From the NCBI RefSeq assembly GCF_008728195.1, contig NZ_CP031598.1:372001-436000 (forward strand): 64,000 nt of DNA, read 5' to 3'. Under the pieces are notes generated by a model. The model had not been told where the DNA came from. It made no database searches and saw only the letters and a program-made list of their open reading frames with translations. This DNA is from Roseovarius indicus. GTDB lineage: Bacteria > Pseudomonadota > Alphaproteobacteria > Rhodobacterales > Rhodobacteraceae. Made by a program: the position numbers and the translations under genes. The number at the start of each line of letters is the position of its first letter. Positions within the stretch are counted from its first letter, which is position 1. Shown piece after piece: positions 39,622-55,316 of the stretch.

Positions 39622-41100
39622 GTGGCTGAAATGGATATTGAAAAGTTCGTCGAGGCGCCGGGCCGCGACGAAAAGATCAAGGAAGTTCGGAAGAAGATCG
39701 ACGAGCTGGGTATCGAATATCTCTACCTGCAGTTTGTCTCTGTCACCGGCAAGATCATGGGCAAGGGGATCCCGGCCGATCACTGGGAACAGGTCGCCAA
39801 GAAGGGCTTCCAGCTCGTCTACGGCGCGACGATGAACCTCTTCCTGAACCGGGCGGGCGACTACTTGGGCTATGGCCCGGAAGCGGCCGAGCTGGTCGGT
39901 ATTCCCGAGCCGGAAACCTTCATGCAGCTGCCCTGGGCGCCGGAAATCGGCCGGTTCTACTGCACGCTGTTCCGCAACCGAGAGGAAAAGGTTGATCCGG
40001 GTGCATACCTGACGTCGGATTGCCGCGGCAACCTGCGCCGTCTGCACGAGGAATTCACCAAGAAGCACGGCACCAAGCTGCGGATCGGCACCGAGCCCGA
40101 GATGATGTGGCTGAAGTTCGACGAGAACGGCAAGCCGAAGGACGGCTATTCCAAGCCCTATTGCTATCACATCGACCAGTTCGAGAGCCTGCGGCCGGTG
40201 TCGCTCCAGGTGATCCGCTATGCCCGCAAGATGGGCCTCGACATGATCCAGGGCGACCACGAGGACGCGCCCGGTCAGCTCGAGCTCAACTGGATGTTCG
40301 ACGACGTGTTGCGCAATGCCGACCGTCTGACCACCTATCGCCAGATCTGCGCCCAGGTGGCGCGCGAGAACGGCATTTTCGCCTGCTTCATGACCAAGCC
40401 CTTCATGGGGGTTTCGGCCAGCGGCTGTCACCACAACATGAGCCTGTGGCGCGGTGGCGAGGACGAGTTCGTCAAGTGCGGCAACAACCCCGACGACCTG
40501 CCGGGGATGGCCGACAACTACATGTACGTGAAAGGCGGCGAGAACACCTTCATGCCCGACACCGACGACCCGCAGATGCCGGGCACCGAAGGTCTGAAGG
40601 CGATCGGCGGCGTGGTGCATCACCTGCAGGCGCTCACCGCGATCGGCTGTTCGACGGTGAACTCCTACCGCCGGCTGTGGGACACGGGCTTCTGGGCGCC
40701 GGTCTTCTCTGACTGGGGCTTCCAGAACCGGACGACCGGCCTGCGGGTTTCGGCGCCCGGCCGCTTCGAGTACCGTTCGGTCGACTCGATGGTGAACCCC
40801 TACCTGATGGGCTCGACCCTGCTGGCGGCGATGGATGACGGGCTGGAGAACAGCCTCGACCCGGGCAAGCCGGAAGAGCGCAACATCTACGAGGCGATGG
40901 AGCAAGGCAAGGAAGTGAAGAAGCTTCCGATGAGCCTTGGCGAGGCGCTCGACAAGCTTGCGGCGAGCGATGTCGTCCAGCGCGGTCTGCCGGGCGAGAT
41001 GTACCGTCTCTACGACGAGTACAAGCGCGACGAGTTCGCCCGCTTCATGTCGACCGTCACCGAGTGGGACAACGAAATGTACATGGAATGTCTGCCCTGA
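39622..41100 (+). CDS. glutamine-synthetase-family gamma-glutamyl amide ligase
   Basis: The 492-residue GS-fold enzyme would join the gamma-carboxyl of glutamate to ammonia or an amine using ATP. Active-site segments are intact: GTEPEMMW, GDHEDAPGQLELNW, FMTKPFMGVSASGCHHNMSL, NSYRRLW, and APGRFEYRSVDSMVNPYL. It starts at GTG 39622 (GGGAG 7 bases upstream; ATG 39631 is possible). Followed by an amidotransferase and glutamate-synthase-like proteins, it recalls gmaS-mgsABC (methylamine) or glnT-glxBCD blocks, and PuuA-type ligases. The substrate amine is not determined. Confidence 0.85.
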   Translation: MAEMDIEKFVEAPGRDEKIKEVRKKIDELGIEYLYLQFVSVTGKIMGKGIPADHWEQVAKKGFQLVYGATMNLFLNRAGDYLGYGPEAAELVGIPEPETFMQLPWAPEIGRFYCTLFRNREEKVDPGAYLTSDCRGNLRRLHEEFTKKHGTKLRIGTEPEMMWLKFDENGKPKDGYSKPYCYHIDQFESLRPVSLQVIRYARKMGLDMIQGDHEDAPGQLELNWMFDDVLRNADRLTTYRQICAQVARENGIFACFMTKPFMGVSASGCHHNMSLWRGGEDEFVKCGNNPDDLPGMADNYMYVKGGENTFMPDTDDPQMPGTEGLKAIGGVVHHLQALTAIGCSTVNSYRRLWDTGFWAPVFSDWGFQNRTTGLRVSAPGRFEYRSVDSMVNPYLMGSTLLAAMDDGLENSLDPGKPEERNIYEAMEQGKEVKKLPMSLGEALDKLAASDVVQRGLPGEMYRLYDEYKRDEFARFMSTVTEWDNEMYMECLP

Positions 41101-41114
41101 GGCATTCCATCCTC

Positions 41115-41150
41115 AAGGCGGCAGGTGACCCTCTTGCCTGCCGCCTTTCT
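41115..41150 (+). terminator. intra-operon terminator/attenuator after the GS-like gene
   Basis: A perfect 11-base stem AAGGCGGCAGG/CCTGCCGCCTT with an 11-base loop, followed by TCTT, lies 14 bases after the stop codon. It likely lowers expression of downstream genes relative to the ligase, or stabilises the upstream mRNA. Confidence 0.65.
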
Positions 41151-41195
41151 TGAACAGCAACGCGACAACCAGACAACCAAAGGAGGCGCATCCAG

Positions 41196-42131
41196 ATGTG
41201 CGGAATTGCTGGATTGATCCACAAGGGCAAGAGCGCAAACGTCGGGTCGGAAATGACCCTGATGTTGCAGGCCCTGAAACACCGAGGACCGGACAGCACC
41301 GGGTATGCGGTCTACGGCGAGCCGAAGGAAGGCGAGTATATCATGCGCCTCAAGGTCGCCGAGGCCGAAGACCGGGCGCGCGGCCACAGCGTGCACAAGC
41401 TGATTTCCGACCGCATCGCCGCGGTCGACGAAATCCTGGGCGAGCATGACGTGACCGTGAAATCGAAGAACGCGGTGACCGAATACGCCCTGCGTTACGT
41501 GCTGAGTGATATCGACGACACCGGCAAGCTGGCCGGCCGCCTCGAGGAGATCGAGGGCGTCGAGATCCTGTCCTTCGGCAACGGGCTCGAACTGATCAAG
41601 GACCTGGGCGACGCCACCGTGGTTTCGAACCAATACGGCCTGAACGAGTTCAAGGGCACGCACGGCATCGGCCACACGCGGATGGCGACAGAGTCGGATG
41701 TCGACATCAAGTCGGCGCACCCCTACTGGGCCTTCCCCTATAACGACGTGAGCGTCGTCCATAACGGGCAGATCACCAACTACTGGATCATGCGCCGCGA
41801 GATGGAACGCAAGGGCCATCGTTTCATGTCGAACTGCGACAGCGAGCTGCTGGCGGTCTACACGGCCCACAACCTTGCCAATGGCGTGTCGCTCGAGGAC
41901 AGCCTGAAGCAGTCGATCCAGGAGATCGACGGCGTCTTCACTTACCTCGTGGCGACCAAGGACCAGCTGGGCATGGCCAAGGATACGATGGCCGCCAAAC
42001 CGCTGGTTCTGTACGAATCCGATGATCTGATCGCGATGGCCTCGGAAGAGGTGGCGATCCGGGCAATCCTTCCCGAAGAGATCGATACGACAGACCCTTA
42101 TGACGAGGAGGTTCGGGTATGGCAGGCGTAA
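41196..42131 (+). CDS. class II glutamine amidotransferase domain protein (GlxB/MgsA-like)
   Basis: This 311-residue Ntn-type glutaminase subunit has the nucleophile Cys2 after Met removal (MCGIAGL), then KHRGPDSTG, GIGHTRMATES, VVHNGQITN and the NCDSE glutamine-site motif. It releases ammonia from glutamine (or an alkylamine from gamma-glutamyl amide, in MgsA) for the FMN subunit. An insert of about 65 residues follows the first beta-strands. It overlaps the next gene by 13 bases, so the subunits are coupled. Confidence 0.88.
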   Translation: MCGIAGLIHKGKSANVGSEMTLMLQALKHRGPDSTGYAVYGEPKEGEYIMRLKVAEAEDRARGHSVHKLISDRIAAVDEILGEHDVTVKSKNAVTEYALRYVLSDIDDTGKLAGRLEEIEGVEILSFGNGLELIKDLGDATVVSNQYGLNEFKGTHGIGHTRMATESDVDIKSAHPYWAFPYNDVSVVHNGQITNYWIMRREMERKGHRFMSNCDSELLAVYTAHNLANGVSLEDSLKQSIQEIDGVFTYLVATKDQLGMAKDTMAAKPLVLYESDDLIAMASEEVAIRAILPEEIDTTDPYDEEVRVWQA

Positions 42132-42988
42132 CCGACGAAGAACTCAAGCAGATGACCCAGGAAGAGCGGGTCACCGCTCTGGGGATGCGCACCGAACAGC
42201 TGACGGGCAAGTCGCTCTATGTCGAATTCGACCCCGATGCCGAGGAACGCTTTACCTACCCCTGGGCGCCAGATGTCGACTTCAACAAGCGCACCGAGCT
42301 TGATACCGACAAGATGACCACGACCGAGGTGAACAGCTCCATCCGCGAGCTGATGCGCGAGGGCTATGGCACGATCGTGCTGCAGAACCCGCGCGGCAAG
42401 CACAGCCTTGGCGTCGGTATCCTGAGCCGGCTCAACCTGATCATCGAGGGCTCCTGCGGGTATTTCGGCGTGGGCCTCATCGACGGGCCGAACGTGCGGA
42501 TCACCGGCCGGGTCGGCTGGTCCTGCGGTGAGAACATGATGGCGGGCACCATCGTCATCGAGAAGAACGCAGGCTCGACTTTCGGCGCGGCGATGCGCGG
42601 CGGCGATCTTGTCTGCCGCGGCTCGGTGGGTTCGCGCACGGGGATCGATCAGAAGGGCGGCACGATCATCGTCGGTGGCGACACCGGCGCACTGTCGGGC
42701 TTCATGATGCAACGCGGGCGGATGGTTGTCTGCGGCAATGCCGGAAAGAACCTCGGCGACTCGATGTATGACGGCACGATCTACGTGGGCGGCGAAATCA
42801 AGTCGCTCGGCGTCGATGCCGTCGAGGCCGAGCTGACCGATCTCGACAAGAAGTGGCTGACACGCAAGCTCACGCAGTACGGGCTGATGCCCGACAAGGG
42901 CGTCGATCACTTCACCAAGGTCGTGGCCGGCAAGCAGCTGTGGAACTACGACAACCTCGAACCGACCGAGAAGAAATTGATCCTGTAA
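42119..42988 (+). CDS. GXGXG-domain glutamate synthase-like subunit (GlxC/MgsB-like)
   Basis: The 289-residue protein's central part (about 95-240) is a right-handed beta-helix of the glutamate synthase alpha-subunit C-terminal type, with repeated G-x-G-x-G-like turns (GSCGYFGVGL, GRVGWSCGENM, GSTFGAAMRGGD, GGTIIVGGDTG). It has no catalytic centre of its own and organises the tunnel between amidotransferase and FMN subunit. The N-terminal ~90 residues are an extra helical part. Confidence 0.88.
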   Translation: MAGVTDEELKQMTQEERVTALGMRTEQLTGKSLYVEFDPDAEERFTYPWAPDVDFNKRTELDTDKMTTTEVNSSIRELMREGYGTIVLQNPRGKHSLGVGILSRLNLIIEGSCGYFGVGLIDGPNVRITGRVGWSCGENMMAGTIVIEKNAGSTFGAAMRGGDLVCRGSVGSRTGIDQKGGTIIVGGDTGALSGFMMQRGRMVVCGNAGKNLGDSMYDGTIYVGGEIKSLGVDAVEAELTDLDKKWLTRKLTQYGLMPDKGVDHFTKVVAGKQLWNYDNLEPTEKKLIL

Positions 42989-42990
42989 AA

Positions 42991-43036: not shown

Positions 43037-43059
43037 CACACGGATAAGGAGACACGACA

Positions 43060-44424
43060 ATGGCTGACGGCGATCTGCCACAGAAAAAGCCCCTGGGCCG
43101 CGACAATTACCGGCTGGGCGACAGCTTCATCTTCCCGCCCAACGTGATGGACGACATCCACATCAAGTCCGAGCTTGGCCGCTACCGGATGCGGGGGTTC
43201 TCGCTGTTCAAGAAAATCCCGCACTGGGATGACCTGACCTTCCTTCCCGGCACGCTGACGCGGTTCGTGATCGAGGGCTACCGCGAGAAATGCGAGACCA
43301 AGACGGTGATCGGCCCGCGCGCCAAGAAGCCGCTGGAGCTGGATATTCCGGTCTATATCACCGGCATGTCCTTCGGCGCGCTCAGCTACGAGGCGAAAAC
43401 CGCGCTGGCACGGGGCGCCACGATGGCGGGCACGGCGACCTGCTCGGGCGAGGGCGGCATGATCCCCGATGAGCGGCGCTACAGCTCGAAATGGTTCTAC
43501 CAGTGCATCCAGTCGCGCTATGGCTTCAACCCGAACCACCTGATCCTCGCCGATGGCTGCGAGTTCTTCATCGGGCAGGGCTGTAAAGTCGGCCTTGGCG
43601 GCCACCTGATGGGTCAGAAAGTGACCGACCAGGTTGCCGAGATGCGCTCGCTGCCCGCCGGCATCGACCAGCGCTCACCCGCCCGTCACCCCGACTGGCT
43701 CGGCCCGGATGACCTTGCACTGAAGATCCAGGAGATCCGCGAGGCGACCGACTGGCAGATCCCGATCCAGCTCAAGCTGGGCGCGGCGCGGGTCTATGAC
43801 GACGTGCGCATGGCGGTGAAGTGTGACCCCGACAGCATCTATATCGACGGGATGGAAGGCGGCACCGGCGCCGGCCCGCACCTTGCCACCGAGGATACCG
43901 GCGTGCCGGGCATGGCCGCCATCCGCCAGGCGCGGAAGGCGATCGACGACCTTGGCAAGCGCGGCGAGATCAGCCTTGTCTATGCGGGCGGCATCCGCAA
44001 TGGCGCCGACGTGGCGAAAGCCATCGCGCTGGGCGCCGACGCCATCGCCATCGGCCACTCGGCGATGATGGCGCTGAACTGCAACAAGGACATCCCCGAG
44101 GCCAACTATCCCGAAGAGATCGGCGCGGAGCCCGGTTACTGCTACCACTGCCACACGGGCCGCTGCCCGGTCGGCGTGGCGACGCAGGACCCCAAGCTGC
44201 GCGAACGGCTTGATCCGGATGCGGCGGCGGAACGTGTCTACAACTTCCTCCACACGCTCACCATCGAGGCGCAGCTCTTCGCCCGCGCCTGTGGCAAGAC
44301 CTACATCCACTCGCTGGAGCCCGAGGATATTGCCGCGCTGACGATGGAAGCCTCGGCCATGGCCGGTGTGCCGCTTGCGGGCACCAACCATACCGTGGGC
44401 GTCGAGGATTATCACCACTTCTAA
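43060..44424 (+). CDS. FMN-binding glutamate synthase-like protein (GlxD/MgsC-like)
   Basis: This 454-residue TIM-barrel flavoprotein corresponds to the FMN domain of glutamate synthase. ITGMSFGALSYEAKTALARG and GEGGM bind FMN and oxoglutarate. IYIDGMEGGTGAGP, LVYAGGIRNGADVAKAIALG and the [3Fe-4S]-type cysteines in CYHCHTGRCPVGV are conserved. With the two upstream proteins it forms a three-subunit complex that would make glutamate or an N-alkylglutamate from oxoglutarate. A REPIN-like element precedes it. Confidence 0.9.
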   Translation: MADGDLPQKKPLGRDNYRLGDSFIFPPNVMDDIHIKSELGRYRMRGFSLFKKIPHWDDLTFLPGTLTRFVIEGYREKCETKTVIGPRAKKPLELDIPVYITGMSFGALSYEAKTALARGATMAGTATCSGEGGMIPDERRYSSKWFYQCIQSRYGFNPNHLILADGCEFFIGQGCKVGLGGHLMGQKVTDQVAEMRSLPAGIDQRSPARHPDWLGPDDLALKIQEIREATDWQIPIQLKLGAARVYDDVRMAVKCDPDSIYIDGMEGGTGAGPHLATEDTGVPGMAAIRQARKAIDDLGKRGEISLVYAGGIRNGADVAKAIALGADAIAIGHSAMMALNCNKDIPEANYPEEIGAEPGYCYHCHTGRCPVGVATQDPKLRERLDPDAAAERVYNFLHTLTIEAQLFARACGKTYIHSLEPEDIAALTMEASAMAGVPLAGTNHTVGVEDYHHF

Positions 44425-44425
44425 G

Positions 44426-44500: not shown

Positions 44501-44914
44501 ATGGCTGGAACACAGTACCGCGGCTCGGAGATCACCGATGTCGACCAGTTCCTGAAAGACGCCGACGGGCTTGGCTCGGAGCGCGAGAAGGAAATCGGCC
44601 AGCATATCGGCTATCGCTACGACGTGAACCTGGTGCCGGATTACGACCGGATCACCCCTTATCTTCAGAAATACATGGAGGTCATGGGCTGGGACGACCT
44701 GAACTGGCTGGAAGACGTGCACATGGGCTATGAAGAAGGCGCCCCTGCCGTGTTCGACCGGAACAACAATGGCTGGATCCGCGTGCCCGACACGCTCGAT
44801 CTGCCCGACAACCAGCAGGATCGGGACATGATCGCGCGCGAGCTTCTTCTGAAGTTCCAGATGTCCGACCGGCACCCGCTGGTGGCGCTGCGCAAGGCTT
44901 ACATGAAGTTCTGA
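44501..44914 (+). CDS. unrecognised 137-residue operon protein
   Basis: This soluble, acidic protein is rich in Asp, Tyr and aromatic residues (DVNLVPDYDRITPYLQKYME; VMGWDDLNWLEDVHMGYEEG) and has no Cys, signal or transmembrane segment. I recognise no family. It has a good AAGGAGAG ribosome site and lies 6 bases before the amidase gene inside the GS/GltS-like operon, so it is probably a real accessory subunit or enzyme of this pathway. Confidence 0.7.
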   Translation: MAGTQYRGSEITDVDQFLKDADGLGSEREKEIGQHIGYRYDVNLVPDYDRITPYLQKYMEVMGWDDLNWLEDVHMGYEEGAPAVFDRNNNGWIRVPDTLDLPDNQQDRDMIARELLLKFQMSDRHPLVALRKAYMKF

Positions 44915-44920
44915 AGCATC

Positions 44921-45769
44921 ATGCCGCGCCCGCTCGATATCGCCTGTCTTCAGACACGGCCCCGGCCCGAGTTCCGCCCGGCGCTGGACGAGGCCTTGCC
45001 CCTGGCCGACACGGCGGCGCGGGCGGGCGCGGATATTCTCTTTCTGCCGGAATATTGCGGCGGGCTGCAATCCGAGGGGTCGGCCTTGACGCCGCCTTCT
45101 GCGCCGGAGTCAGAGCACCCTTTCCTGCAAGAGATGCAGGGCTTTGCGCGCGACCGGAAGATCTGGATCAACCTCGGCTCCATCGCCGTGGACGGGCCCG
45201 ACGGGCGGATCATCAACCGCGGGTTCATGCTGGACGATTCGGGCGAAATTCGCGGGCGCTACGACAAGATCAACATGTTCGACATCCAGCTGTCGGAAAC
45301 CGAGGTCTATCACGAAAGCGCTCGGGTGAGCCCGGGCTCGAAGGCGGTGATCCATGACACGCCCTTCGCCCGGATCGGGCACACGATCTGTTACGACCTG
45401 CGCTTTCCGCAGCTGTTCCGCACGCTGGCGCAGGCCGGGGCGGAGATCCTCATTTGCCCGGCGGCCTTTACGAAGAAGACCGGCGAAGCGCATTGGCATG
45501 TGCTGAACCGGGCCCGCGCCATCGAGACCACCCGTTTCGTCATTTCCGCCTGTGCCATCGGCCCGGTGCCGGGGGGCGGGGAGTGTTACGGTCATTCGCT
45601 GGTGGTCAGCCCGTGGGGCGAGGTGATCAGCGATGGCGGCACCATTCCCGGCGTTGTGCAGGCGCGCATCGACCTTGATGCCGTGGCCGAGGCCGAGGGC
45701 CGCGTGCCCAGCCTGATGAACGACCGGCCCTTCACCCTTTCCCATTCCTCCCACAGGAGCGTTGCATGA
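44921..45769 (+). CDS. carbon-nitrogen hydrolase (nitrilase superfamily amidase)
   Basis: The 282-residue enzyme has the complete catalytic triad Glu44 (LFLPEYCG), Lys116 (GRYDKINMFD) and Cys157 (HTICYDLRFP). The layout is closest to omega-amidase/deaminated-glutathione-amidase (Nit1/Nit2) types, which hydrolyse gamma-amides of oxo-dicarboxylates. In this operon it could cleave a gamma-glutamyl or oxoglutaramate-type amide. It overlaps the next gene by 4 bases. Confidence 0.9.
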   Translation: MPRPLDIACLQTRPRPEFRPALDEALPLADTAARAGADILFLPEYCGGLQSEGSALTPPSAPESEHPFLQEMQGFARDRKIWINLGSIAVDGPDGRIINRGFMLDDSGEIRGRYDKINMFDIQLSETEVYHESARVSPGSKAVIHDTPFARIGHTICYDLRFPQLFRTLAQAGAEILICPAAFTKKTGEAHWHVLNRARAIETTRFVISACAIGPVPGGGECYGHSLVVSPWGEVISDGGTIPGVVQARIDLDAVAEAEGRVPSLMNDRPFTLSHSSHRSVA

Positions 45770-46356
45770 GTTCGCTGGCCTCGCAATTCGGGCAGAGCTT
45801 TTCCAACCACCCCTTGCGCATGGGCTTCCTGCGCTGGCAATGCCGGGTGCGGCAGATGGCCATGCGCGACAAGGATGGCCGGCCGGATGATGCGATCATG
45901 CCGGAGGTGTTCCTGCCGGGCCAGGACGAGCCGCTGGGCGCGATCATCACGGTGATGAGCAAGACGCCGGGCTATTCGGTGACGCCCGAGTTGGAGCACA
46001 TGTCCGCCAAGACCAACGACCCGGCACAGCGGCGCGAGCAGGCGATCCGGTTTCTCGCGGCGGGGTATTACCAACAGGCGGCGGAGTTCTCTGACATCCT
46101 GACCGCCACCTTCCCGCCGGGCTCGCCCGGCGCGGCACAGATCCACGAGGCCGGGCGCTGTACGCTGGTCTTCGAGGCCTATGCCCAGCGGTTCGAGCTC
46201 GACTGCAAGGTCTGGCGGCTGGCGCCGCATAACCTTCTGCACCAGGCGACGATGGCGCATAACCGGCTCTTCAATCCGGGGATTCCGGGGGACACGGTCG
46301 TGCTGGGGTTCGAGCCGGACTGGGAAAACTGCACCTCCGACCCGAAGATCGCCTGA
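45766..46356 (+). CDS. unrecognised 196-residue operon protein
   Basis: The soluble mixed alpha/beta protein has several conserved-looking aromatic/His patches (HPLRMGFLRWQCRVRQ, KVWRLAPHNLLHQATMAHNR) and no signal or transmembrane helix. I do not recognise the family. Translational coupling (4-base overlap) to the amidase implies a role in the same pathway. It is the last gene before a composite hairpin and the dispersed TATTTTTG motif, so this transcript probably ends here. Confidence 0.7.
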   Translation: MSSLASQFGQSFSNHPLRMGFLRWQCRVRQMAMRDKDGRPDDAIMPEVFLPGQDEPLGAIITVMSKTPGYSVTPELEHMSAKTNDPAQRREQAIRFLAAGYYQQAAEFSDILTATFPPGSPGAAQIHEAGRCTLVFEAYAQRFELDCKVWRLAPHNLLHQATMAHNRLFNPGIPGDTVVLGFEPDWENCTSDPKIA

Positions 46357-46412: not shown

Positions 46413-46460
46413 TTGGGGGCGCTGCCCCCAAACCCCCGGGATATTTTTGCCAAGAAGAAG
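46413..46460 (+). repeat. composite hairpin plus GGGATATTTTTGCCAAGAAGAAG motif, copy 4
   Basis: A TTGGGGGC-gct-GCCCCCAA hairpin (46413-46431) is followed by the dispersed motif (46435-46460). It probably acts as a transcript end for the upstream operon. The remaining part of the 46357-46626 gap holds the regulator promoter. Confidence 0.6.
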
Positions 46461-46592
46461 CAGGGGCGCATTCCCTGCACTTTCATTTTTCCGGAAATAC
46501 TCTCGCCGAAGGCGTCCTGACCTCGCGGCCGGCGGCGTCGTTCGCGGGTGCGCGGTGCCGTTACGGAAATGTCTCGACACCTGAATACAGTT

Positions 46593-46626: not shown

Positions 46627-47331
46627 ATGGCCCCAGACCGGAAGACCCAATGCCTCGAAGATCTGCGGATGCGGATTCTGCGGCAGGAGATCGCGCCGGG
46701 CGCCGATCTCGACGAGGCGGCGATCTGTGCCGAGTACGGCTTGTCGCGGACCCCCGTGCGGGAGATTTTTCAGCGGCTGGCGGGCGAGGGGTACCTGACG
46801 CAAGGCCAGAACCGTGGGCCGAAGGTGGCGTCGATGGACCTTCCGGTGATGCGGATGTTCTTTCAGACCGCGCCGATGATCTATGCCAACGTCGCGCGGC
46901 TGGCGGCCGAGAACCGGCGCGCCGACGAGATCCCGCCGCTGAAGGCCACGCAGGAGGAATTCCGCGCCGCGACCGAGGCCGGCGATGCCGGCAGTGCCGC
47001 GCTGCTGAACCACCGCTTTCACCGGCAGATCGGCGAGATGGCGCACAACCCCTACCTGCTGGCCAGTCTCAACCGCATGTTGATCGACCATACGCGGCTG
47101 AGCCAGACCTTCTATCGCCCGGCCTCGGAAGACGAGACGGCGCGCGTGAAGGCCGCCATCGACCATCACGACGCGATGATCGCCGCCATCGAGGCGCATG
47201 ACGCCGACGGCATCGTCGACCTGACCATCGAACACTGGAACCTGTCGCGCGACCGGCTGGAGCGGTTTGTCACCCCTGACCCGCTGCCGCTTGACGTGCT
47301 TTCCAAAGAGGACCGCGCCAATGCAGTTTGA
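46627..47331 (+). CDS. GntR-family regulator (FCD subfamily)
   Basis: The 234-residue protein has a winged helix (EIAPGADLDEAAICAEYGLS; RTPVREIFQRLAGEGYL) and an FCD domain with His ligands in HRFHRQIGEMAHN and IEHWNLSRD. AAGGA lies 9 bases before the ATG. It overlaps the next gene by 11 bases, so it is cotranscribed with the enzymes it probably controls (46.6-55.3 kb). Confidence 0.9.
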   Translation: MAPDRKTQCLEDLRMRILRQEIAPGADLDEAAICAEYGLSRTPVREIFQRLAGEGYLTQGQNRGPKVASMDLPVMRMFFQTAPMIYANVARLAAENRRADEIPPLKATQEEFRAATEAGDAGSAALLNHRFHRQIGEMAHNPYLLASLNRMLIDHTRLSQTFYRPASEDETARVKAAIDHHDAMIAAIEAHDADGIVDLTIEHWNLSRDRLERFVTPDPLPLDVLSKEDRANAV

Positions 47332-48229
47332 AGGGATCTGGACGCCCATCGTCACGCCCCTGAACGCCGATTTCTCGATCAACGAGGCCGCGCTGGCCGA
47401 GGTGGTCGAATACCTGATCGCCGGTGGCGTGAACGGGATCATCTCGGCCGGGACGACAGGGGAATATTACGCCCAGACGGTCGAAGAGCGGGCGCACCTG
47501 GCGAAGCTCACGAAGGAGATGATCGGCGGCCGGGTGCCGCTGGTGGTGGGCACCGGCGCGCTGCGCACCGAGGACAGTATCGAGTTTGCGAAGATGGCCA
47601 AGGGGGTGGGCGCCGACGCGATCCTCGTGGCGACGCCGCCCTATTCGGTGCCGACGGGGCGCGAGATCGCGCTGCATGCGCTGGCGATCGACCGGGCGGT
47701 GGACATGCCGGTGATGCTTTACAACTACCCGGGCCGGATGGGCGTGAACATGGACGCCGACACGCTGGATCGCCTTGGCCGCTCGCCCAATTTCTGCGGC
47801 ATCAAGGAAAGCAGCGGCGACATCAACCGCCTGCACCTGGTCGCGCGGGAGTATCCTCACCTGGGGCTGCTTTGCGGGATGGATGACCAGGCGCTCGAGT
47901 TCTTTGCCTGGGGCGCCAAGGGCTGGGTCTGTGCCGGGTCGAACTTCGCGCCGGAGGCGCATGTGGCGCTTTACAAGGCGTGTGTGGTCGAGGGCGACTT
48001 CACCAAGGGCCGGCGGATCATGTCGGCGATGATGCCGCTGATGAGCGTGCTCGAACAGGGCGGCAAGTTCATCCAGTGCATCAAGCACGGGCTGACGATG
48101 CGCGGCATTCCCGCGGGCCCGCCCCGCAAGCCGCTGCAACCGCTCAACAAGGACGACAAGCGCGCGCTGGAAGAGGTGATCCGCACGCTCGACACCGCCA
48201 TCGCCGCGATCACGGGAGAGGCCAAATGA
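47321..48229 (+). CDS. dihydrodipicolinate synthase-family lyase/deaminase
   Basis: This 302-residue class I aldolase-fold enzyme has the SAGTTGEYY carboxylate-binding loop, LYNYPGRMG with the proton-relay Tyr, and the Schiff-base Lys162 in CGIKESSGD. Members include DapA, N-acetylneuraminate lyase, 5-keto-4-deoxyglucarate dehydratase and pyrroline-4-hydroxy-2-carboxylate deaminase. Pairing with a GntR regulator and an aldehyde dehydrogenase favours a catabolic dehydratase/deaminase over lysine synthesis. The substrate is unassigned. Confidence 0.88.
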   Translation: MQFEGIWTPIVTPLNADFSINEAALAEVVEYLIAGGVNGIISAGTTGEYYAQTVEERAHLAKLTKEMIGGRVPLVVGTGALRTEDSIEFAKMAKGVGADAILVATPPYSVPTGREIALHALAIDRAVDMPVMLYNYPGRMGVNMDADTLDRLGRSPNFCGIKESSGDINRLHLVAREYPHLGLLCGMDDQALEFFAWGAKGWVCAGSNFAPEAHVALYKACVVEGDFTKGRRIMSAMMPLMSVLEQGGKFIQCIKHGLTMRGIPAGPPRKPLQPLNKDDKRALEEVIRTLDTAIAAITGEAK

Positions 48230-49719
48230 CCGAGTTACTGACCCGCGAGGAATACGCCGCCATCGCCGCCGACCTCGACCTGCCCGCGGCGCCGTTCATC
48301 GACGGCAAGTTCCGCAAGGGGAACGGCCCGGTGATGGAGACGGTGAACCCGGCCACGGGCGAGGTGCTGAAAAAGATCTCGACCGCCAATGCCGAGGACG
48401 TGGATTTCGCCGTGAAGAAGGCACGCGAAGCCTTTGACCGGGGCGAGTGGTCGCGGGCGCACCCGTCGGAGCGCAAGGATGTTCTGATCCGCTTCTGCAA
48501 GCTGATCACGCGGCGGCGGCACGAGCTGGCGGTGATGGAGAGCCTCGACAGCGGCAAGCCGATCCGCGATTGCGAGACGATCGACGTGCCGGAGACCATT
48601 CACACGATCAAGTGGCATGGCGAGCTGATCGACAAGATCTACGACCAGACCGGCCCGAGCGGGGACGACGCGATTTCGATGATCGTGCGCGAGCCATTGG
48701 GCGTGGTGGCCGCCGTGCTGCCGTGGAACTTCCCGATGCTGATGATGGCGTGGAAGATCGGCCCGGCGCTGGCCGCCGGCAACTCGGTGATCGTGAAGCC
48801 CGCCGAGCAGACCAGCCTGACCGCGCTGCGGCTGGCCGAGGTGGCGCATATGGCGGGCATCCCGCGCGGTGTGCTTCAGGTTCTGCCGGGCGACGGGCCA
48901 GGCGTGGGCGAGCCGCTGGGGCTGCACATGGGCGTCGACATGGTGAGCTTTACCGGCTCGACCGAGACCGGCAAGCGGTTCCTGCGCTATTCGGCCGACA
49001 GCAACATGAAGAAGGTCACGCTGGAATGCGGCGGCAAGAACCCGGCAGTCGTGCTGGAGGATGCCGAGAACCTCGATCACGTGGCAGAGCACGTGGTCAA
49101 CGCGGCCTTCTGGAACATGGGCGAGAACTGTTCGGCGACCAGCCGGCTGATCGTGCACAAGGCGGTAAAGGACGCGCTGCTGGAGCGGATCGTGGCAAGG
49201 ATGCGCGACTGGAAGATGGGCGATCCGTTGGATCCGGCGATGCATCTGGGCGCGCTCATTGACGGCGAGCATTGTAAGAAGGTGTCGAAATACCTCAAGG
49301 GCAAGGCCGTTGCCGGGGGTGGCAAGGCGAAAGGGAATTTCGTCGAGCCCACGGTTTACGAGGTGAAGAAATCCGACGCGAAGGCACGCGAAGAAATCTT
49401 CGGGCCGGTCCTGTCGGTCATCGAAGTGGCCAGCACCGAGGAGGCGATCCAGCTGGCCAACGACACCGAATATGGCCTCGCGGCGTCGGTCTTTTCCGGC
49501 AATGTGCGCAAGGCCATCCGCGCCGCGCGGGAGATCCGGGCGGGCACCGTGACGGTCAACTGCTACGGCGAGGGCGATATCTCCACCCCCTTCGGCGGCT
49601 ACAAGCAATCGGGCTTCGGCGGGCGTGACAATTCCATCCACGCCCATGACCAGTTCACCGAAATGAAGACGATCTGGATCGACCTGACCGATCCAAAGGA
49701 CGGCGACAACGTCGGGTAG
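48226..49719 (+). CDS. aldehyde dehydrogenase (PuuC-like)
   Basis: The 497-residue NAD(P)-dependent aldehyde dehydrogenase has VLPWNFPMLMMAWK, FTGSTETGK, Glu in LECGGKNP and the catalytic Cys in NMGENCSATSR. The N-terminal VNPATGEVLKKI and SLDSGKPI.DCETIDVPETI region resembles PuuC-type gamma-glutamyl-aminobutyraldehyde and betaine-aldehyde dehydrogenases. It overlaps the lyase gene by 4 bases. Its stop codon lies inside the left arm of the third REPIN-like element. Confidence 0.9.
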   Translation: MTELLTREEYAAIAADLDLPAAPFIDGKFRKGNGPVMETVNPATGEVLKKISTANAEDVDFAVKKAREAFDRGEWSRAHPSERKDVLIRFCKLITRRRHELAVMESLDSGKPIRDCETIDVPETIHTIKWHGELIDKIYDQTGPSGDDAISMIVREPLGVVAAVLPWNFPMLMMAWKIGPALAAGNSVIVKPAEQTSLTALRLAEVAHMAGIPRGVLQVLPGDGPGVGEPLGLHMGVDMVSFTGSTETGKRFLRYSADSNMKKVTLECGGKNPAVVLEDAENLDHVAEHVVNAAFWNMGENCSATSRLIVHKAVKDALLERIVARMRDWKMGDPLDPAMHLGALIDGEHCKKVSKYLKGKAVAGGGKAKGNFVEPTVYEVKKSDAKAREEIFGPVLSVIEVASTEEAIQLANDTEYGLAASVFSGNVRKAIRAAREIRAGTVTVNCYGEGDISTPFGGYKQSGFGGRDNSIHAHDQFTEMKTIWIDLTDPKDGDNVG

Positions 49720-49787: not shown

Positions 49788-51341
49788 ATGGCTGATGTGG
49801 CAGAGAAAAGAGCAGCCCGGCGTGGCCGCGGGGCGCGCACCTCGGCGCGGCGGACGCGGGATTTCACGATGCTGCCCGCGCTGAGGCGTGGGCTTCCGCT
49901 GACCGAACCGATGGATATGGAGCAGGTCGAGCGGATCGACGCGGCCTCGATGCATATCCTCGAGAACGTGGGCGTGGTGTTCCGCGACGAGATCGCGCTG
50001 GCCGACTGGAAAGCCGCCGGGGCGAAGGTGGAGGGGGAGACCGTCTATCTTGACCGTGGTCTCGTAAGGGAGCTGATCAAGACGATTCCCGAAACCTTCA
50101 CCTACCACGCGCGCAACCCGGCGAATAACCTGCCGTTCGGCAAGGATCACGCGATCTTCGTGCCGATGACGGGTGCGCCCTACCTACGCGACCTCGACGA
50201 TGTACGGCGGAACCCCACGCTGGAGGATCTGGCGAATTTCCACAAGCTGTCGCATATGCTGCCGGCGCTGCACAGCTCGGCGCATCATATCGTGGAACCT
50301 TACGACCACCCGATCAGCCAGCGGCACCTGCGCATCACCTATTCGTCGATGAAGCATTCCGACAAGACGTTCATGGGCATGACCACCAGCCCGAAGAACG
50401 CCGAGGACGTGATGGAGATGTGCGCGGTCCTGTTTGGCGCGGACTTCATGGAGGATCACCCGGTCGCCACCGGCAACTGCAACGGCAACTCGCCGCTGGT
50501 GTGGGATGAAACCATGCTGGGCGCGATGCGCGCCTTCTGCCGGAAGAACCAGCCGGTGCTGTGCTCGCCCTTTGTGCTGGGCGGGGCGAATACGCCCGCG
50601 TCGGTGGCGCCCTCGGTGGCGCAGCTGAATGCCGAGGTGCTGTCGGCGCTGGCCTACACGCAGGTCATCCGCAAGGGGTGCCCGGCGATCTACGGCCATT
50701 ACCTGTCGACCGTCAGCATGAAATCCGGCGCGCCGATGGCGGGGACGCCCGAGATTTCCCTCATGAACATGATGATCGGACAGATGGCGCGGTTCTACGG
50801 CGTGCCGTGGCGCTCCTCGACCAACCTTGGCGGGGCCAAGACGCTCGATGCGCAGGCGGGCTATGAAAGCGCCACCACGCTGATGGCGCTGCAGATGGCG
50901 GGCACGAATTACATGTGGCACGCCGCGGGCTGGAACGAGGCCGGGATGCATTGCTCGATGGCCAAGTTCGTGGTCGATGCCGAGCAATGCGCCATGGCCT
51001 ACCGCATGGCCGAGGGTATCCGCTGGGACGATTTCGACGAGGCTGTCGCGGCTGTCGCCGATATCGGCCCGGGTGGGCATTACCTTGGCCACGAGCACAC
51101 GCTCGCCAATTTCCAGCGGGCATTCTTCATGCCGGACCTGTTCGATAATAATGCATTTGAACAATGGGTTGCCGAAGGCGGCATCGATACGAACATCCGC
51201 GCCCTCAATCACGCGCGGGACTTGCTGAAGGCCTACGAGGAGCCGACACTCGATGCCGGCGTCAACGAGGCGCTGCTCGATTACATCGCGCGCCGCGAAA
51301 GGGAGATCCCGGCTGCGGATGCGCTGAACCAGGAGTACTGA
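49788..51341 (+). CDS. MttB-like (trimethylamine methyltransferase family) protein, non-pyrrolysine
   Basis: This 517-residue TIM-barrel member of the MttB superfamily has an Arg-rich N-terminus (RRGRGARTSARRTRDF) and family segments FTYHARNPANN, TGNCNGNSPL, GGANTPASVAPS and GTNYMWHAAGWNE. The frame has no in-frame amber codon, so it is a non-Pyl homologue like MtgB, which demethylates quaternary amines with a corrinoid partner. No corrinoid protein is encoded here. It is followed 3 bases later by a P450. Actual substrate and methyl acceptor are unknown. Confidence 0.88.
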   Translation: MADVAEKRAARRGRGARTSARRTRDFTMLPALRRGLPLTEPMDMEQVERIDAASMHILENVGVVFRDEIALADWKAAGAKVEGETVYLDRGLVRELIKTIPETFTYHARNPANNLPFGKDHAIFVPMTGAPYLRDLDDVRRNPTLEDLANFHKLSHMLPALHSSAHHIVEPYDHPISQRHLRITYSSMKHSDKTFMGMTTSPKNAEDVMEMCAVLFGADFMEDHPVATGNCNGNSPLVWDETMLGAMRAFCRKNQPVLCSPFVLGGANTPASVAPSVAQLNAEVLSALAYTQVIRKGCPAIYGHYLSTVSMKSGAPMAGTPEISLMNMMIGQMARFYGVPWRSSTNLGGAKTLDAQAGYESATTLMALQMAGTNYMWHAAGWNEAGMHCSMAKFVVDAEQCAMAYRMAEGIRWDDFDEAVAAVADIGPGGHYLGHEHTLANFQRAFFMPDLFDNNAFEQWVAEGGIDTNIRALNHARDLLKAYEEPTLDAGVNEALLDYIARREREIPAADALNQEY

Positions 51342-51344
51342 ACC

Positions 51345-52529
51345 ATGTGTGCGTTGCCTTATCTCGACCTGACTGACCCCGGGTTTTCCACCCGTGGACC
51401 GGAAGTGATGGCGGCGCGCGATGCGCATTGGTGCGCCGAGACGCCCTATGGGCTGGCGGTGCTGCGCTACATGGAGGTGGGCCGCATCCTGCGCGACCGC
51501 CGGTTCCGGCAGGGCAGCCACGCCTGGCCCGACACGGTGGGGATCGAGGGGCGTTTCGCCGATTTCTGGCGCGACTCGGTGATCGGGCGCGAGGGGGACG
51601 CGCATCGCAAGCTGCGCGCGCTGGCGGTGCCGGCGCTGTCTGAGGAATACGTGCTCAGCCTCAAACCCGCGTTTGACGAGATTGCCCGCGATCTGTGCGA
51701 GGGACTGCGCCAGACCCGCGCCTGCGAGTTCCAGTCGGCCTTTTGCGAGCCCTTCGCCGGGCAGGCGATCACCACGCTTCTGGGCCTGTCACGCGAGCGC
51801 TGGCCCGAGGTGGCGCATGATGCCAGCGACCTCGGGTTGGCAATGGGGATCGAGGCGCCGCAGCATCAGGACCGATTCAACGCCGCCTGTACGCGGCTTT
51901 TCAACCTTGCCGACGAGCTGGTCGCGCGGGTGCGGCGGGGCGAGGACAGCGAAAGCTATGTCGCCCGCATGGTGGCGGAGTTCGACGCCAATGGCGACTG
52001 CACCCATGAAGAGCTGCTGAACACGATCGTGATCTCGATCTTCGGCGGGGTCGACACGACCCGTGCGCTGCTCGGCCTTGGCCTGTCTCTGTTCATCGAG
52101 CACCCGGATCAGTGGCATCTGATGCGCAACGACCCGTCGCTGATCCCCGCCGCGGTCGACGAGTTCATTCGCGCCCGGCCGACAACCACATGGGCCACGC
52201 GAGAGGCGGTGGAGGATGTCGAGATGAACGGGCAGGTGATCGAGAAGGGCACCATCCTGCACCTTTTCGTACATGCCTCGGCCCGCGATCCGGAATATAG
52301 CGACAACCCCGATTTCGACATCACCGCCAAGCGGCGCAAGCATTTCGGCTTTGGCGGCGGGGCGCATCACTGCATCGGGCACTTCGTGGCGCGCACCGAC
52401 ACCGCCTGCGCGCTCGACGCCCTGCGCCAGACCTTCGCCAACGTCGAGTATGACGGCGCCCCCGAATGGCTACCCGACAGCGGCAACACCGGCGCGCGTC
52501 GCCTGCCGATCAAGTACGAGGTCGCCTGA
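51345..52529 (+). CDS. cytochrome P450
   Basis: The 394-residue soluble bacterial P450 has the I-helix oxygen-activation motif FGGVDTT, the ExxR helix EFIR, and the heme-binding loop FGFGGGAHHCIGH with Cys343. Redox partners are not encoded in the window. Between an MttB-like methyltransferase and two SDRs, it could hydroxylate or N-demethylate an alkylamine. Its stop overlaps the start of the next gene (TGATG). Confidence 0.94.
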   Translation: MCALPYLDLTDPGFSTRGPEVMAARDAHWCAETPYGLAVLRYMEVGRILRDRRFRQGSHAWPDTVGIEGRFADFWRDSVIGREGDAHRKLRALAVPALSEEYVLSLKPAFDEIARDLCEGLRQTRACEFQSAFCEPFAGQAITTLLGLSRERWPEVAHDASDLGLAMGIEAPQHQDRFNAACTRLFNLADELVARVRRGEDSESYVARMVAEFDANGDCTHEELLNTIVISIFGGVDTTRALLGLGLSLFIEHPDQWHLMRNDPSLIPAAVDEFIRARPTTTWATREAVEDVEMNGQVIEKGTILHLFVHASARDPEYSDNPDFDITAKRRKHFGFGGGAHHCIGHFVARTDTACALDALRQTFANVEYDGAPEWLPDSGNTGARRLPIKYEVA

Positions 52530-53260
52530 TGAGGTTCGAGGGCAAACGCGCGCTGGTGACCGGCGCGGCAGGGGGCATCGGCGCGGTGCTGGCCGCGATG
52601 CTGCGGGCCGAGGGGGCCGTTGTGGCTGTCACCGACCGGCAGACCGACGGGATCGAGGCCGAGGCGCACTTTGACGGGGATCTCTGCGACGGGGCCTTTT
52701 GTGATGCCTTGCCCGGGCAGGTGGCCGAGGCATTGGGCGGGATCGACCTGCTTTGCAACAATGCGGGTGTCATTACCCGCGGCCCGATCACCGAAGTGAC
52801 CGATGCCGACTACGCGCTAACCATGGCCGTGAATGTCGCCGCACCCTTCCGCCTGTGCCGGGCCGCCATTCCGATCATGGCGGGGCAGGGAGGCGGCGCC
52901 ATCGTCAACACTGCCTCCTGCTGGGGCCTGCGCCCCGGTCCGAACCATCCGCTCTATGTCATGTCCAAGGCGGCGGTCGCCTCGCTCACCCAGTGCCTTG
53001 GTCGCGACCACGCGCATCAGGGCATCCGCGTCAACGCCGTCTGTCCGAACGAGGTCAACACGCCGATGCTGCGCAGCGGATTTGCCGCGCGCGGATTCGA
53101 CCCCGACAAGGCGATGGCAGACCTGCACGCGTCTGTCCCAATTGGCCATGTCGCCGACCCGGAGGAGATTGCCGACGTGATCCTGTTCCTCGCCTCGGAC
53201 GCGGCCCGTTACATGACCGGCGCGTTGCTGGAAGTACACGGAGGCAAGCCAGTCGTATGA
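52529..53260 (+). CDS. SDR family oxidoreductase
   Basis: The 243-residue classical SDR has TGAAGGIG (NAD(P) loop, about 11-18), LCNNAGV, Ser in NTASCWG and YVMSK for Tyr-Lys catalysis. An acidic residue after beta-2 (VTDRQ) favours NAD. It ends LEVHGGKPVV. It is translationally coupled on both sides (P450 upstream, second SDR downstream) and would oxidise an alcohol formed in this pathway. Confidence 0.9.
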   Translation: MRFEGKRALVTGAAGGIGAVLAAMLRAEGAVVAVTDRQTDGIEAEAHFDGDLCDGAFCDALPGQVAEALGGIDLLCNNAGVITRGPITEVTDADYALTMAVNVAAPFRLCRAAIPIMAGQGGGAIVNTASCWGLRPGPNHPLYVMSKAAVASLTQCLGRDHAHQGIRVNAVCPNEVNTPMLRSGFAARGFDPDKAMADLHASVPIGHVADPEEIADVILFLASDAARYMTGALLEVHGGKPVV

Positions 53261-53988
53261 AACGGTTCGACGGAAAAGTGGCGCTGGTGACCGGCGCGTC
53301 CTCGGGCATGGGGGCGGCGACGGCGGACCTGCTGGCCGAAGGTGGGGCGCGGGTGTTCACGGCACAGCGCGGCGGGACGGCGCATGAAAGCATCCCGGCC
53401 GATTTCTCCGACCGGGCCACGCCGGCGCGGGTGATCGGCCATGTGGAACAGGCGGCGGGCCGGCTCGACATCCTGATAAACAATGCCGGAATGATGCGCG
53501 AAGGAACGGTCGAGGAAACAAGCGAGGAAGACTGGGATGCGCAGCTTCACCTCAACCTCACCATTCCGTTCCTGCTGATCCGTGCCGCCATGCCGCTTCT
53601 GAAGGCCTCGAAGGGGGCCATCGTCAACACTGGCTCGATCGAGGGCCTGGGCAACAACCCCCGCCACCCGGCCTATGGCGCGTCGAAAGCCGGGCTGCAC
53701 GGGCTGACCCGCGCCGTGGCGGTGGACGAGGGGCAGCATGGTGTGCGCTGCAACGCGGTGGCGCCGGGCTGGATCGACACGCCGCTGAACGAGGCCTACA
53801 TCGAGAGCCTTGGCGACCCGGCGCAGTTCCGCCGCGAGGTGGGCCGCATCCATCCGATCCGCCGAACCGGCGCGCCAGAGGAAGTCGCCCGCCTGATCTG
53901 CTGGCTCGCCTCGGACGAGGCAAGCTTCGTCACCGGCCAGATCTACACCGTCGACGGCGGGCGCACCGCACAATTGAGCCTGCCATGA
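53257..53988 (+). CDS. SDR family oxidoreductase
   Basis: The second 243-residue SDR has TGASSGMG, LINNAGM, Ser in NTGSIEG, and YGASK for the catalytic Tyr-Lys. VFTAQRGG suggests NADP preference, unlike its neighbour. Identity to the upstream SDR is moderate, so this is not a recent duplication. It overlaps both neighbours by 4 bases. Confidence 0.9.
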   Translation: MKRFDGKVALVTGASSGMGAATADLLAEGGARVFTAQRGGTAHESIPADFSDRATPARVIGHVEQAAGRLDILINNAGMMREGTVEETSEEDWDAQLHLNLTIPFLLIRAAMPLLKASKGAIVNTGSIEGLGNNPRHPAYGASKAGLHGLTRAVAVDEGQHGVRCNAVAPGWIDTPLNEAYIESLGDPAQFRREVGRIHPIRRTGAPEEVARLICWLASDEASFVTGQIYTVDGGRTAQLSLP

Positions 53989-55316
53989 AAGTCACCCGCC
54001 TGCCTGTCGATCCCGGCCCCGCCGGGTGGAACGAGATCCTGCCTGCCGCCGACGCGGCGCAGGAACTGCACGAGCGCACCACCGCCGATTTCCTTGTCAT
54101 CGGCGGCGGCTATGCGGGGCTTGCGGCGACCCGGCGGCTGGCGCAGCTGAACCCCGAGGCGCGGATCGTGCTGCTGGAGGCGAAACGCATCGGCGAGGGA
54201 CCGGCGGGGCGCAATTCCGGTTTCATGATCGACCTGCCGCATGACCTGGCCTCCGACGATTACGGCGGGGCGGTGGAAGCCGATAAGGCCCAGACCCGCG
54301 CCAACCGGGCGGGGATCGACTTCGCCGGGGCGATGGCCGAGGAATACGGGCTTGGCGAGGAGGCGTTTGCCCGGTCGGGCAAGATCAACGCGGCGGCGAC
54401 CGACAAGGGGCATCGGCACAATCTCGACTATGCGCAGCACCTCACGGCGATGGGCGAGGCGAACGAGATGCTCGACGCGGCGCAGATGCGCGAGCTGACT
54501 GGCACGGGCTATTACCAGAGCGGGCTTTACACCCCCGGCACGGCGATGATCCAGCCGGCGATGTTCGTGCGCGGGGTGGCGCGGGGGCTGCGCTCGAACC
54601 GGGTGCGGATCTACGAGAATTCGCCGGTGACGGACCTGAAGCGCAACGGCGCGTGGAACGCGACGACGCCCCGGGGCCGAGTGGTGGCGCCGAAGGTGAT
54701 CCTGGCGGTTAACGGCCATGCCAACAGCTTCGGCTATTTCAAGCGGCAGTTGCTGCATGTCTTCACCTATGCCTCGATGACCCGGGCTTTGACCGCGGAC
54801 GAGGTGCAGAAACTCGGCGGCCAGCCCCGCTGGGGCGCCACACCGGCCGACCCGATGGGCACCACCGTGCGGCGCATTTCGGGGATTGGCGGCGACCGGA
54901 TCGTGATCCGCAACCGGTTCACCTGTGATCCTTCGATGGAGGTGAGCGCCGCGCGGATTGCGCGGGTGGGACGGGATCACGACAGGGCCTTCGCGGCGCG
55001 GTTTCCCATGCTGACGGATGTCGGGATGGAGTATCGCTGGGGCGGGCGGCTGTGCCTGAGCTGGAACAGCGTGCCCGCGACGGGGGAGGTCGAAACGGGG
55101 CTGTTTTCGGCCTGTTGTCAGAACGGGCTGGGCACGGCGAAGGGCACGATGCTGGGGATGGTGACGGCGGATCTGGCGGCGGGGAACCATACCGACCTGC
55201 TGGCCGATGTGCTGTCGCTCGATGCGCCGAAGCGGCTGCCGCCCCTTCCGTTCACCTTCCTCGGCGCCAATGCAGTGATGCGCTGGGGCGAGATGAAGGC
55301 GCGGCGCGAGATGTGA
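53985..55316 (+). CDS. FAD-dependent amine oxidase/dehydrogenase (DAO family)
   Basis: This 443-residue flavoprotein has the ADP-binding GGGYAG (about 40-45), AGRNSGFM and the late DAO-type CQNGLGTAKGT segment. It is similar in layout to PuuB and other gamma-glutamyl-amine or N-methyl amino acid oxidases that release an aldehyde. It is the last gene of the cluster, coupled to the SDR. With the GS-like ligase, PuuC-like ALDH and the amidase it completes a possible gamma-glutamylated amine route. Confidence 0.88.
   Translation: MKVTRLPVDPGPAGWNEILPAADAAQELHERTTADFLVIGGGYAGLAATRRLAQLNPEARIVLLEAKRIGEGPAGRNSGFMIDLPHDLASDDYGGAVEADKAQTRANRAGIDFAGAMAEEYGLGEEAFARSGKINAAATDKGHRHNLDYAQHLTAMGEANEMLDAAQMRELTGTGYYQSGLYTPGTAMIQPAMFVRGVARGLRSNRVRIYENSPVTDLKRNGAWNATTPRGRVVAPKVILAVNGHANSFGYFKRQLLHVFTYASMTRALTADEVQKLGGQPRWGATPADPMGTTVRRISGIGGDRIVIRNRFTCDPSMEVSAARIARVGRDHDRAFAARFPMLTDVGMEYRWGGRLCLSWNSVPATGEVETGLFSACCQNGLGTAKGTMLGMVTADLAAGNHTDLLADVLSLDAPKRLPPLPFTFLGANAVMRWGEMKARREM

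Follow-up and report, generated by a model that had tools for sequence, protein, structure and literature searches.

A second gamma-glutamyl-amide system in Roseovarius indicus as a candidate route for dimethylamine

Roseovarius indicus carries the canonical operon mgsABC-gmaS, an amine ligase together with a three-part enzyme resembling glutamate synthase. But what is a second set of this kind doing in the same genome (6.17 Mb)? It is part of a gene cluster at 39.6-55.3 kb of a stretch of 64,000 nucleotides (NCBI RefSeq assembly GCF_008728195.1, contig NZ_CP031598.1, positions 372,001 to 436,000 of the forward strand), called the window below. Two modules can be distinguished: module 1 (39.6-46.4 kb), with a GmaS-like ligase (GS2), the glutamate synthase subunits GlxBCD and a small protein, p137, and module 2 (46.6-55.3 kb), with an MttB-superfamily methyltransferase. 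Judged from its sequence, module 1 is a second GmaS/MgsABC-like system beside the canonical one. It may be a gamma-glutamyl-amide system for dimethylamine (DMA), with module 2 a separate operon probably acting on (hydroxy)proline-type betaines, and to this reading, taken whole, we would give an even chance. A preliminary description of the locus, in which both modules act on one N-methylated or alkylated amine, is partly supported overall.

Where would a further DMA route matter? In bacteria with Tmm, Tdm and GmaS and without dmmDABC, DMA handling has been described as a metabolic bottleneck (PMC5520151). Pelagibacter HTCC1062, which lacks dmmDABC, can grow with trimethylamine N-oxide (TMAO) as its only source of nitrogen, and an isoenzyme of unknown identity was suggested (PMC8918994). 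No published route through gamma-glutamyl-dimethylamide or dimethylglutamate, nor any other non-Dmm route, was recognised in the open-access literature covered, which is no proof of absence.

How could module 1 process DMA? GS2 would join it to glutamate with ATP, giving gamma-glutamyl-dimethylamide, and GlxBCD, together with p137, would transfer its dimethylamino group to 2-oxoglutarate. The product would be N,N-dimethylglutamate, just as N-methylglutamate is what MgsABC forms from gamma-glutamylmethylamide. In a further step an oxidative N-demethylase (the FAD protein DAO447 in many genomes, a cytochrome P450 in Roseovarius and some others) would leave N-methylglutamate, from which Mgd would release glutamate and a one-carbon (C1) unit. 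In bacteria that make DMA from trimethylamine (TMA) or TMAO via Tmm and Tdm, module 1 would replace DmmABC. This chemistry, in which DMA bypasses free methylamine and which would supply the DMA step in Dmm-lacking marine bacteria, small low-GC (guanine plus cytosine) genomes of SAR11-like appearance included, is proposed tentatively, somewhat short of an even chance.

The ligase and its partner subunits

Pfam found every gene named in the preliminary description in place, as an open frame with the expected domain (GS C-domain, class-II GATase starting with Met-Cys, GXGXG, Glu_synthase, CN_hydrolase, two FCD, DHDPS, Aldedh, MTTB, P450, two SDR, DAO). Details had to be amended. The co-directional genes other than regulators number fourteen instead of thirteen, and four-base overlaps, said to prevail, occur at 4 of the 14 junctions, alongside single overlaps of 1, 11 and 13 bases and gaps of 3-270 bases at the other seven. 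The ligase most likely starts at 39631 and not at 39622, because homologues align from residue 1-3. The features are as follows.

38551..39240, minus strand: R1, FCD-type GntR regulator divergent from module 1 (Pfam FCD and GntR)
39631..41100, plus strand: GS2, GmaS-like amine:glutamate ligase, 489 aa (Gln-synt_C; IQGDHEDAPGQLELNW and GFWAP flap)
41196..42131, plus strand: GlxB, MgsA-like class-II amidotransferase subunit (GATase_6/7)
42119..42988, plus strand: GlxC, MgsB-like subunit (GXGXG)
43060..44424, plus strand: GlxD, MgsC-like FMN glutamate synthase subunit (Glu_synthase)
44501..44914, plus strand: p137, small protein adjoining GlxD (conserved neighbour; no Pfam or NCBIfam match)
44921..45769, plus strand: Nit, nitrilase-superfamily amidase (CN_hydrolase)
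45766..46356, plus strand: p196, predicted FMN split-barrel-like protein (structure model and Foldseek)
46460..46478, plus strand: terminator-like hairpin between the modules (hairpin scan)
46627..47331, plus strand: R2, second FCD regulator, first gene of module 2 (Pfam FCD)
47321..48229, plus strand: DHDPS-family enzyme, candidate 1-pyrroline-4-hydroxy-2-carboxylate (Pyr4H2C) deaminase (DHDPS)
48226..49719, plus strand: aldehyde dehydrogenase (ALDH), candidate alpha-ketoglutarate semialdehyde (alpha-KGSA) dehydrogenase (Aldedh)
49788..51341, plus strand: MttB-superfamily methyltransferase, no in-frame stop (PF06253)
51345..52529, plus strand: cytochrome P450, candidate N-demethylase (P450 domain)
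52529..53260, plus strand: SDR1 (SDR domain)
53257..53988, plus strand: SDR2 (SDR domain)
53985..55316, plus strand: DAO-family FAD oxidoreductase of module 2 (DAO domain)

Does GS2 belong with GmaS? The structure of RhGmaS names the residues of the methylamine pocket and the flap (PMC7948447). GS2 has the pocket residues Gln175, Asp177, Glu179, Glu186 and Asn188, Trp in place of the catalytic Glu of the flap, and no Asp50' (no DGSS). IQGDHEDAPGQ[L/I]ELN[W/F/Y] with GFWAP is found in all 35 GS2 rows of at least 66% identity, the window's included, and the 51% relative of genome G046 (locus L035) has IQGDCEDAPGQIELNY with GLWAP; the genome's own GlnA reads DKHHHEV and GFEAP at these positions. 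A pocket and flap of GmaS type lead us to expect an alkylamine and not ammonia as the substrate, in keeping with the type first assigned to the ligase, and identity as an ammonia glutamine synthetase is rejected on these residues. In favour of DMA, RhGmaS itself was found to take this amine in vitro (PMC7948447). Membership of PuuA fared worse: NF045547 (PuuA) gives 209.3 bits against a cut-off of 650, and on this score and the GmaS-like pocket PuuABC-type polyamine catabolism is rejected.

GlxB, GlxC and GlxD are three separate subunits (GATase, GXGXG, Glu_synthase), as in MgsABC, and are 31%, 40% and 54% identical to their counterparts in the genome's own canonical operon; the split, MgsABC-like glutamate synthase described earlier is borne out. 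What sets module 1 apart from gmaS-mgsABC is that it forms a separate, extra operon in the same genome, adds p137 and an FCD regulator of its own, and is linked to DAO447 or the P450. GS2 itself is 28% identical to the GmaS of the canonical operon, within a range of 27-32%, and falls below the cut-off of TIGR03105 (GmaS; 300.8 against 469.6 bits), on which the canonical gene scores 663.4.

Two proteins of module 1, p137 (137 aa) and p196 (196 aa), lacked any match in Pfam and NCBIfam at E <= 0.001. The former has 61 invariant columns across 34 sequences; its structure model (predicted local distance difference test, pLDDT, 71.6) gave no PDB fold match at E <= 0.001, and no homologue was found on PLSDB plasmids. 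A p137 homologue suggests that module 1 also exists elsewhere in Roseovarius. For p196 the model is better (pLDDT 92.2) and the best Foldseek matches are flavin split barrels (E 3.0e-4, template modelling score 0.42 by query length).

Distribution of module 1, trimethylamine genes and dmm

Two genome sets were compared, 149 genomes of the window's family and 289 class-wide, which share only the source genome (G000). GS2 is present in 16 family genomes, counting the G046 relative and a copy cut by a contig end in G102, and in 29 of the class set. Surroundings were fetched for 30 loci (family L145-L157, n = 13; class L210-L228, n = 17). The order GS2-GlxB-GlxC-GlxD-p137 is kept in 28 of them, the remaining two being cut at contig ends, and L222 has an extra gene between GlxC and GlxD. 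An R1 homologue (at least 35% identity) accompanies 26 of the 30 (13/13 family, 13/17 class), with none in a further locus, L036; in the 12 unbroken family loci (L145-L156) p196 is always present and Nit in 10.

What surrounds these genes elsewhere? In 11 of the 13 family loci tmm, tdm or tmoXVW is found within the fetched stretch, the two others (L146 and L157) being contigs under 10 kb, and the position beside tmm/tdm recurs outside the family. L153 holds MgdA and MgdC, DAO447, GS2-GlxBCD-p137-Nit-p196, Tmm, TmoXVW and Tdm together, and no DmmA. Recognition of Tmm rested on NCBIfam NF058570 (805.9 bits, cut-off 675) and on matches to PDB 5ipy/5gsn, structures of Roseovarius Tmm; Tdm was identified by its DUF1989 plus GCV_T architecture in one representative (L152). 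Matches to MgdA and MgdC occur in the fetched stretch of L147, L153, L211, L213 and L224, and to MgdA alone in L036, L227 and L228, which fits N-methylglutamate as an intermediate. Mgd also takes part in homarine catabolism (PMC13390433); nothing in the literature covered ties the window genes to homarine. As a separate observation, a gene resembling formate-tetrahydrofolate ligase, judged by eye on the N-terminus, adjoins p137 in L219 and L220 and is near Tmm in L211; it would fit C1 production.

If module 1 stands in for DmmABC, do the two avoid each other? DmmA was recognised by PF11927, whose scores in the family form two groups, at least 215 and at most 198 bits, the threshold being set after this gap was seen. 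G010 and G399, which have dmm genes next to tmm/gmaS, served to assign the high group, with DmmC and DmmD named by eye and gene order. Two borderline cases had to be assigned: G032, whose two PF11927 hits are partial and at contig ends, was taken as positive, and G178 as Dmm-negative despite a 51-bit match. Among the 34 Tmm-positive family genomes, 14 have GS2 only, 18 DmmA only, one both (G046) and one neither (G033, 74% complete); the Fisher value is 1.5e-7, and this value, like those below, treats genomes as independent and ignores phylogeny. Class-wide, the 15 Tmm-positive genomes comprise 12 with GS2 only (G000 included), from 8 families, and three with DmmA only (225-272 bits), from 3 families; none has both or neither (p 0.003 without G000). 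PF11927 genes over 200 bits also occur without Tmm in many class genomes. No PF11927 subunit is among the Pfam hits of the genes of the two modules, and the single PF11927 gene of the source genome (169.4 bits) belongs to the low-scoring clade and is about 2 Mb away. Where present, dmmDABC is beside tmm, gmaS and mgd genes (L181, L229), and by its distribution module 1 would serve the same step, with ligase chemistry in place of direct oxygenation.

Which enzyme does GS2 replace, Dmm or GmaS? Of the Tmm-positive family genomes, 11 of the 14 with GS2 only keep canonical GmaS (G079, G101 and G102 do not), as do 16 of the 18 with Dmm only, where the exceptions are G021 (79% complete) and G078 (83%). 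Class-wide, GmaS is present in 10 of the 11 GS2- and Tmm-positive genomes besides G000 (exception G340, 64% complete) and in all three Dmm-positive ones. As GmaS is kept alongside GS2, GS2 would fill the place of Dmm and not that of GmaS. G101 (a single contig, completeness 100) combines Tmm with GS2 and DAO447. No GmaS in it passes the threshold and none of its genes is of DmmA type, the PF11927 gene scoring 171.3; this is the content expected if DMA enters as N,N-dimethylglutamate, bypassing free methylamine. In G354 (1.20 Mb, one contig, 32-33% GC at the locus) about 27 kb hold GmaS, p137-GlxDCB-GS2-DAO447, Tdm, TmoXVW, Tmm (a match with one internal stop) and MgdA/MgdC. A comparable gene set is found in G178 (1.41 Mb, one contig, 35% GC), and these two small low-GC genomes look like SAR11.

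Candidate demethylases and the order of the steps

Which enzyme could remove a methyl group from N,N-dimethylglutamate? Relatives of the window P450 (at least 43% identity) occur in 10 of the 149 family genomes, the source genome included, and all ten have GS2 (p 7e-12; nine of ten if the 51% ligase of G046 is left out); the next hits are at 26-32% identity and at most 126 bits. The earlier link between P450 and ligase is upheld. In 8 of the 9 relatives with fetched surroundings the P450 is outside a module-2-like cluster, the exception being G109 (L029). The other candidate, DAO447, has sarcosine oxidase and dimethylglycine dehydrogenase among its sequence relatives, families whose substrates are N-methyl amino acids and not free amines. 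DAO447 accompanies GS2 at 18 of the 30 loci, 6 of them family and 12 class, and at 75% identity or more it occurs in 6 of the 149 family genomes, all with GS2; a seventh match, in G008 (40%), is without GS2. As a guess, the P450 within module 2 might serve both modules as an N-demethylase of N-methyl amino acids. Beside the P450 and the GS2-like gene, L035 and L036 carry a further GS-like gene of another type (28% identical to GS2); in L035 a ferredoxin/rubredoxin reductase-like gene and polyamine-type ABC transporter genes were also noted by eye.

Could the demethylase act first? DAO447 or the P450 would then turn DMA into monomethylamine (MMA) and formaldehyde, and GS2-GlxBCD would be a duplicated MMA system working like GmaS-MgsABC. 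Each demethylase is indeed confined to GS2-positive genomes in the family set, GS2 has the GmaS pocket, four GS2-positive family genomes (G064, G079, G101 and G102) lack canonical GmaS, and GS2 and the P450 occur together without GlxBCD in G083 and G046. A second MMA ligase would however be redundant, because most GS2- and Tmm-positive genomes keep canonical GmaS (the 11/14 and 10/11 above), two GS2-positive genomes have neither demethylase, and the relatives of DAO447 act on N-methyl amino acids. On balance this order of events seems unlikely.

What weighs against a DMA system in which demethylation follows ligation? Beyond the neglect of phylogeny in the Fisher values, G046 has both GS2 and DmmA, and outside the Tmm-positive genomes G413 has GS2 (62%) together with a DmmA-type gene. 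The five-gene unit is not universal, since in G083 (L036; GS2 70% identical) and G046 (L035) the ligase is by the P450 with no GlxBCD or p137 in the 20 kb fetched; tmm is about 18 kb from GS2 on the same contig in G083 and on another contig in G046. The source genome itself has about 1.8 Mb between GS2 and tmm, and the neighbourhood of that tmm (L174) showed neither tdm nor tmoXVW. In the window and in Roseovarius the P450 is inside module 2. The complementarity of the two demethylases is suggestive and not significant (P450 only in 8 GS2-positive family genomes, DAO447 only in 4, both in 2, neither in 2; p 0.12), and the two genomes with neither are G014 and G102, the latter with its GS2 cut by the contig end. 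RhGmaS, which takes DMA in vitro, prefers MMA (PMC7948447). Lastly, DMA made from TMA cannot be the ligase's sole use, since Tmm is missing from 1 of the 16 family and 17 of the 29 class genomes that carry GS2.

Might module 1 then be for another secondary or small primary amine, with Dmm exclusion in Tmm-positive genomes a shared history of gene clusters? The many class genomes with GS2 and no Tmm and the broad amine range of RhGmaS in vitro (PMC7948447) speak for this. Its difficulty is that the exclusion repeats class-wide, in as many families as given above, and that the tmm/tdm-adjacent position recurs outside the window's family, and we regard it as improbable.

Module 2 and its relation to module 1

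If module 1 takes DMA, what is module 2 for? Its MttB matches PF06253 with 708.9 bits, falls below the cut-off of TIGR02369 (282.7 against 525) and aligns with the glycine betaine methyltransferase of PDB 9yce (E 7.9e-109). MtgB of Ruegeria pomeroyi is of the same family, and MtgBCD carry out aerobic cobalamin-dependent glycine betaine demethylation in marine bacteria (PMC12478193). Among the matches listed, the closest named relative is from a Roseovarius metagenome-assembled genome (MAG; 96%). A single-protein search gave 261 relatives, of which the best 80 were kept; in these 80 loci R2 is found in 71, DHDPS in 74, ALDH in 76, DAO in 73, SDR1 in 31 and the P450 in 12, with R2, DHDPS, ALDH and DAO all present in 66 and some others cut by contig ends.

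MttB would move one methyl group to a corrinoid protein, the DAO would oxidise the ring, the DHDPS-type enzyme would deaminate and the ALDH would yield 2-oxoglutarate. A D-amino-acid oxidase, a DHDPS-family enzyme and an ALDH are the triad of 4-hydroxyproline catabolism (PMC4113996). Module 2 shares this triad at family level with the trans-4-hydroxyproline betaine (Hpb/Hyp) pathway, and some of its relatives resemble that pathway further: 9 of 81 loci compared have an MR/MLE enzyme matching PDB 4e8g/4izg/4j1o at 380 bits and 2pmq/4h2h at 314 bits, which are HpbD hydroxyproline-betaine epimerases, and six have a 677-aa flavoenzyme of old yellow enzyme (OYE) type; a ProC-like reductase occurs in 13. 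One HpbD-like protein also resembles cis-3-hydroxyproline dehydratase, below that cut-off. No HpbD-like gene is among those of the window, and MttB stands where the characterised pathway uses a Rieske demethylase. The DHDPS-family protein scores narrowly above the dapA cut-off TIGR00674 (208.6 against 206.15), which counts against a hydroxyproline-type reading; the ALDH matches PuuC best among NCBIfam models, below the cut-off (508.1 against 850). Taken together, the gene set makes a (hydroxy)proline-betaine type of substrate probable.

Are the modules one transcription unit? The 270-base gap between them has the terminator-like hairpin at 46460-46478, and in a scan of a 600-base region on both strands 3 hairpin sites were found against 0.5 expected in shuffles. 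A palindromic TTGTATACA at 46592, 5' of R2, is the sole copy in the window (0.01 expected). Hairpin and palindrome therefore suggest two transcription units with different FCD regulators, and the modules look like two operons. A GC-rich hairpin-like sequence at 46413-46439, also between the modules, is single-copy in the window even at 3 mismatches.

Do the modules nonetheless form a single pathway, as first proposed, in which for example module 2 frees methylamine or dimethylamine and module 1 captures it? Among the 63 named MttB loci with at least 9.3 kb seen upstream, the P450 and module 1 are both present in 7, the P450 only in 2, module 1 only in none and neither in 54 (p 6.5e-8); for Roseovarius-titled loci the figures are 7, 1, 0 and 8 (p 0.0014). 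One locus without the P450 is L052 (R. nubinhibens). Module 1 near MttB is accordingly tied to the P450, which sits in module 2 yet co-occurs with GS2 genome-wide, and both facts favour joint action. The modules do co-occur: six of the seven loci have them abutting, and in L058 other genes, some 5 kb of them, intervene. They are nevertheless separable, as 56 of the 63 MttB loci have no module 1 upstream, module 1 elsewhere is at TMA genes, and hairpin, regulator and palindrome divide the two. The co-occurrence stands and joint action itself is unsupported, and to a common substrate we give little credence.

Several side observations concern module 2 and its surroundings. L050 and L051, two contigs of one MAG, each carry a 95% relative of the window MttB followed by a P450, which points to a duplication or a mixed-strain bin. 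Nine other MttB-superfamily matches, at 25-43% identity to that of the window, are encoded by the source genome, and the host may therefore demethylate several quaternary amines. A pyrrolysine codon in an MttB paralogue was rejected, as its TAG is taken to be a terminal stop ending one open 516-residue frame. Directly downstream, at 55378-58271 on the opposite strand, are by eye a MerR-type regulator and a copper-type P-type ATPase, whose homologues are also found close by in several Roseovarius relatives with the cluster.

What would module 1 mean for these bacteria? What is new here is a candidate DMA route, module 1, as an alternative to Dmm. GS2-GlxBCD-p137 offers a concrete candidate for the DMA gap, with thousands of database relatives (7,999 of 8,000 scored candidates match p137 at E <= 0.001, and 3,174 of 7,998 match GS2 from a small genome at E <= 1e-100). 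Metagenome markers of gmaS type may include a second ligase with another substrate. With such a candidate the DMA gap can be put to a direct test, and there may be consequences for DMA fluxes in the sea.

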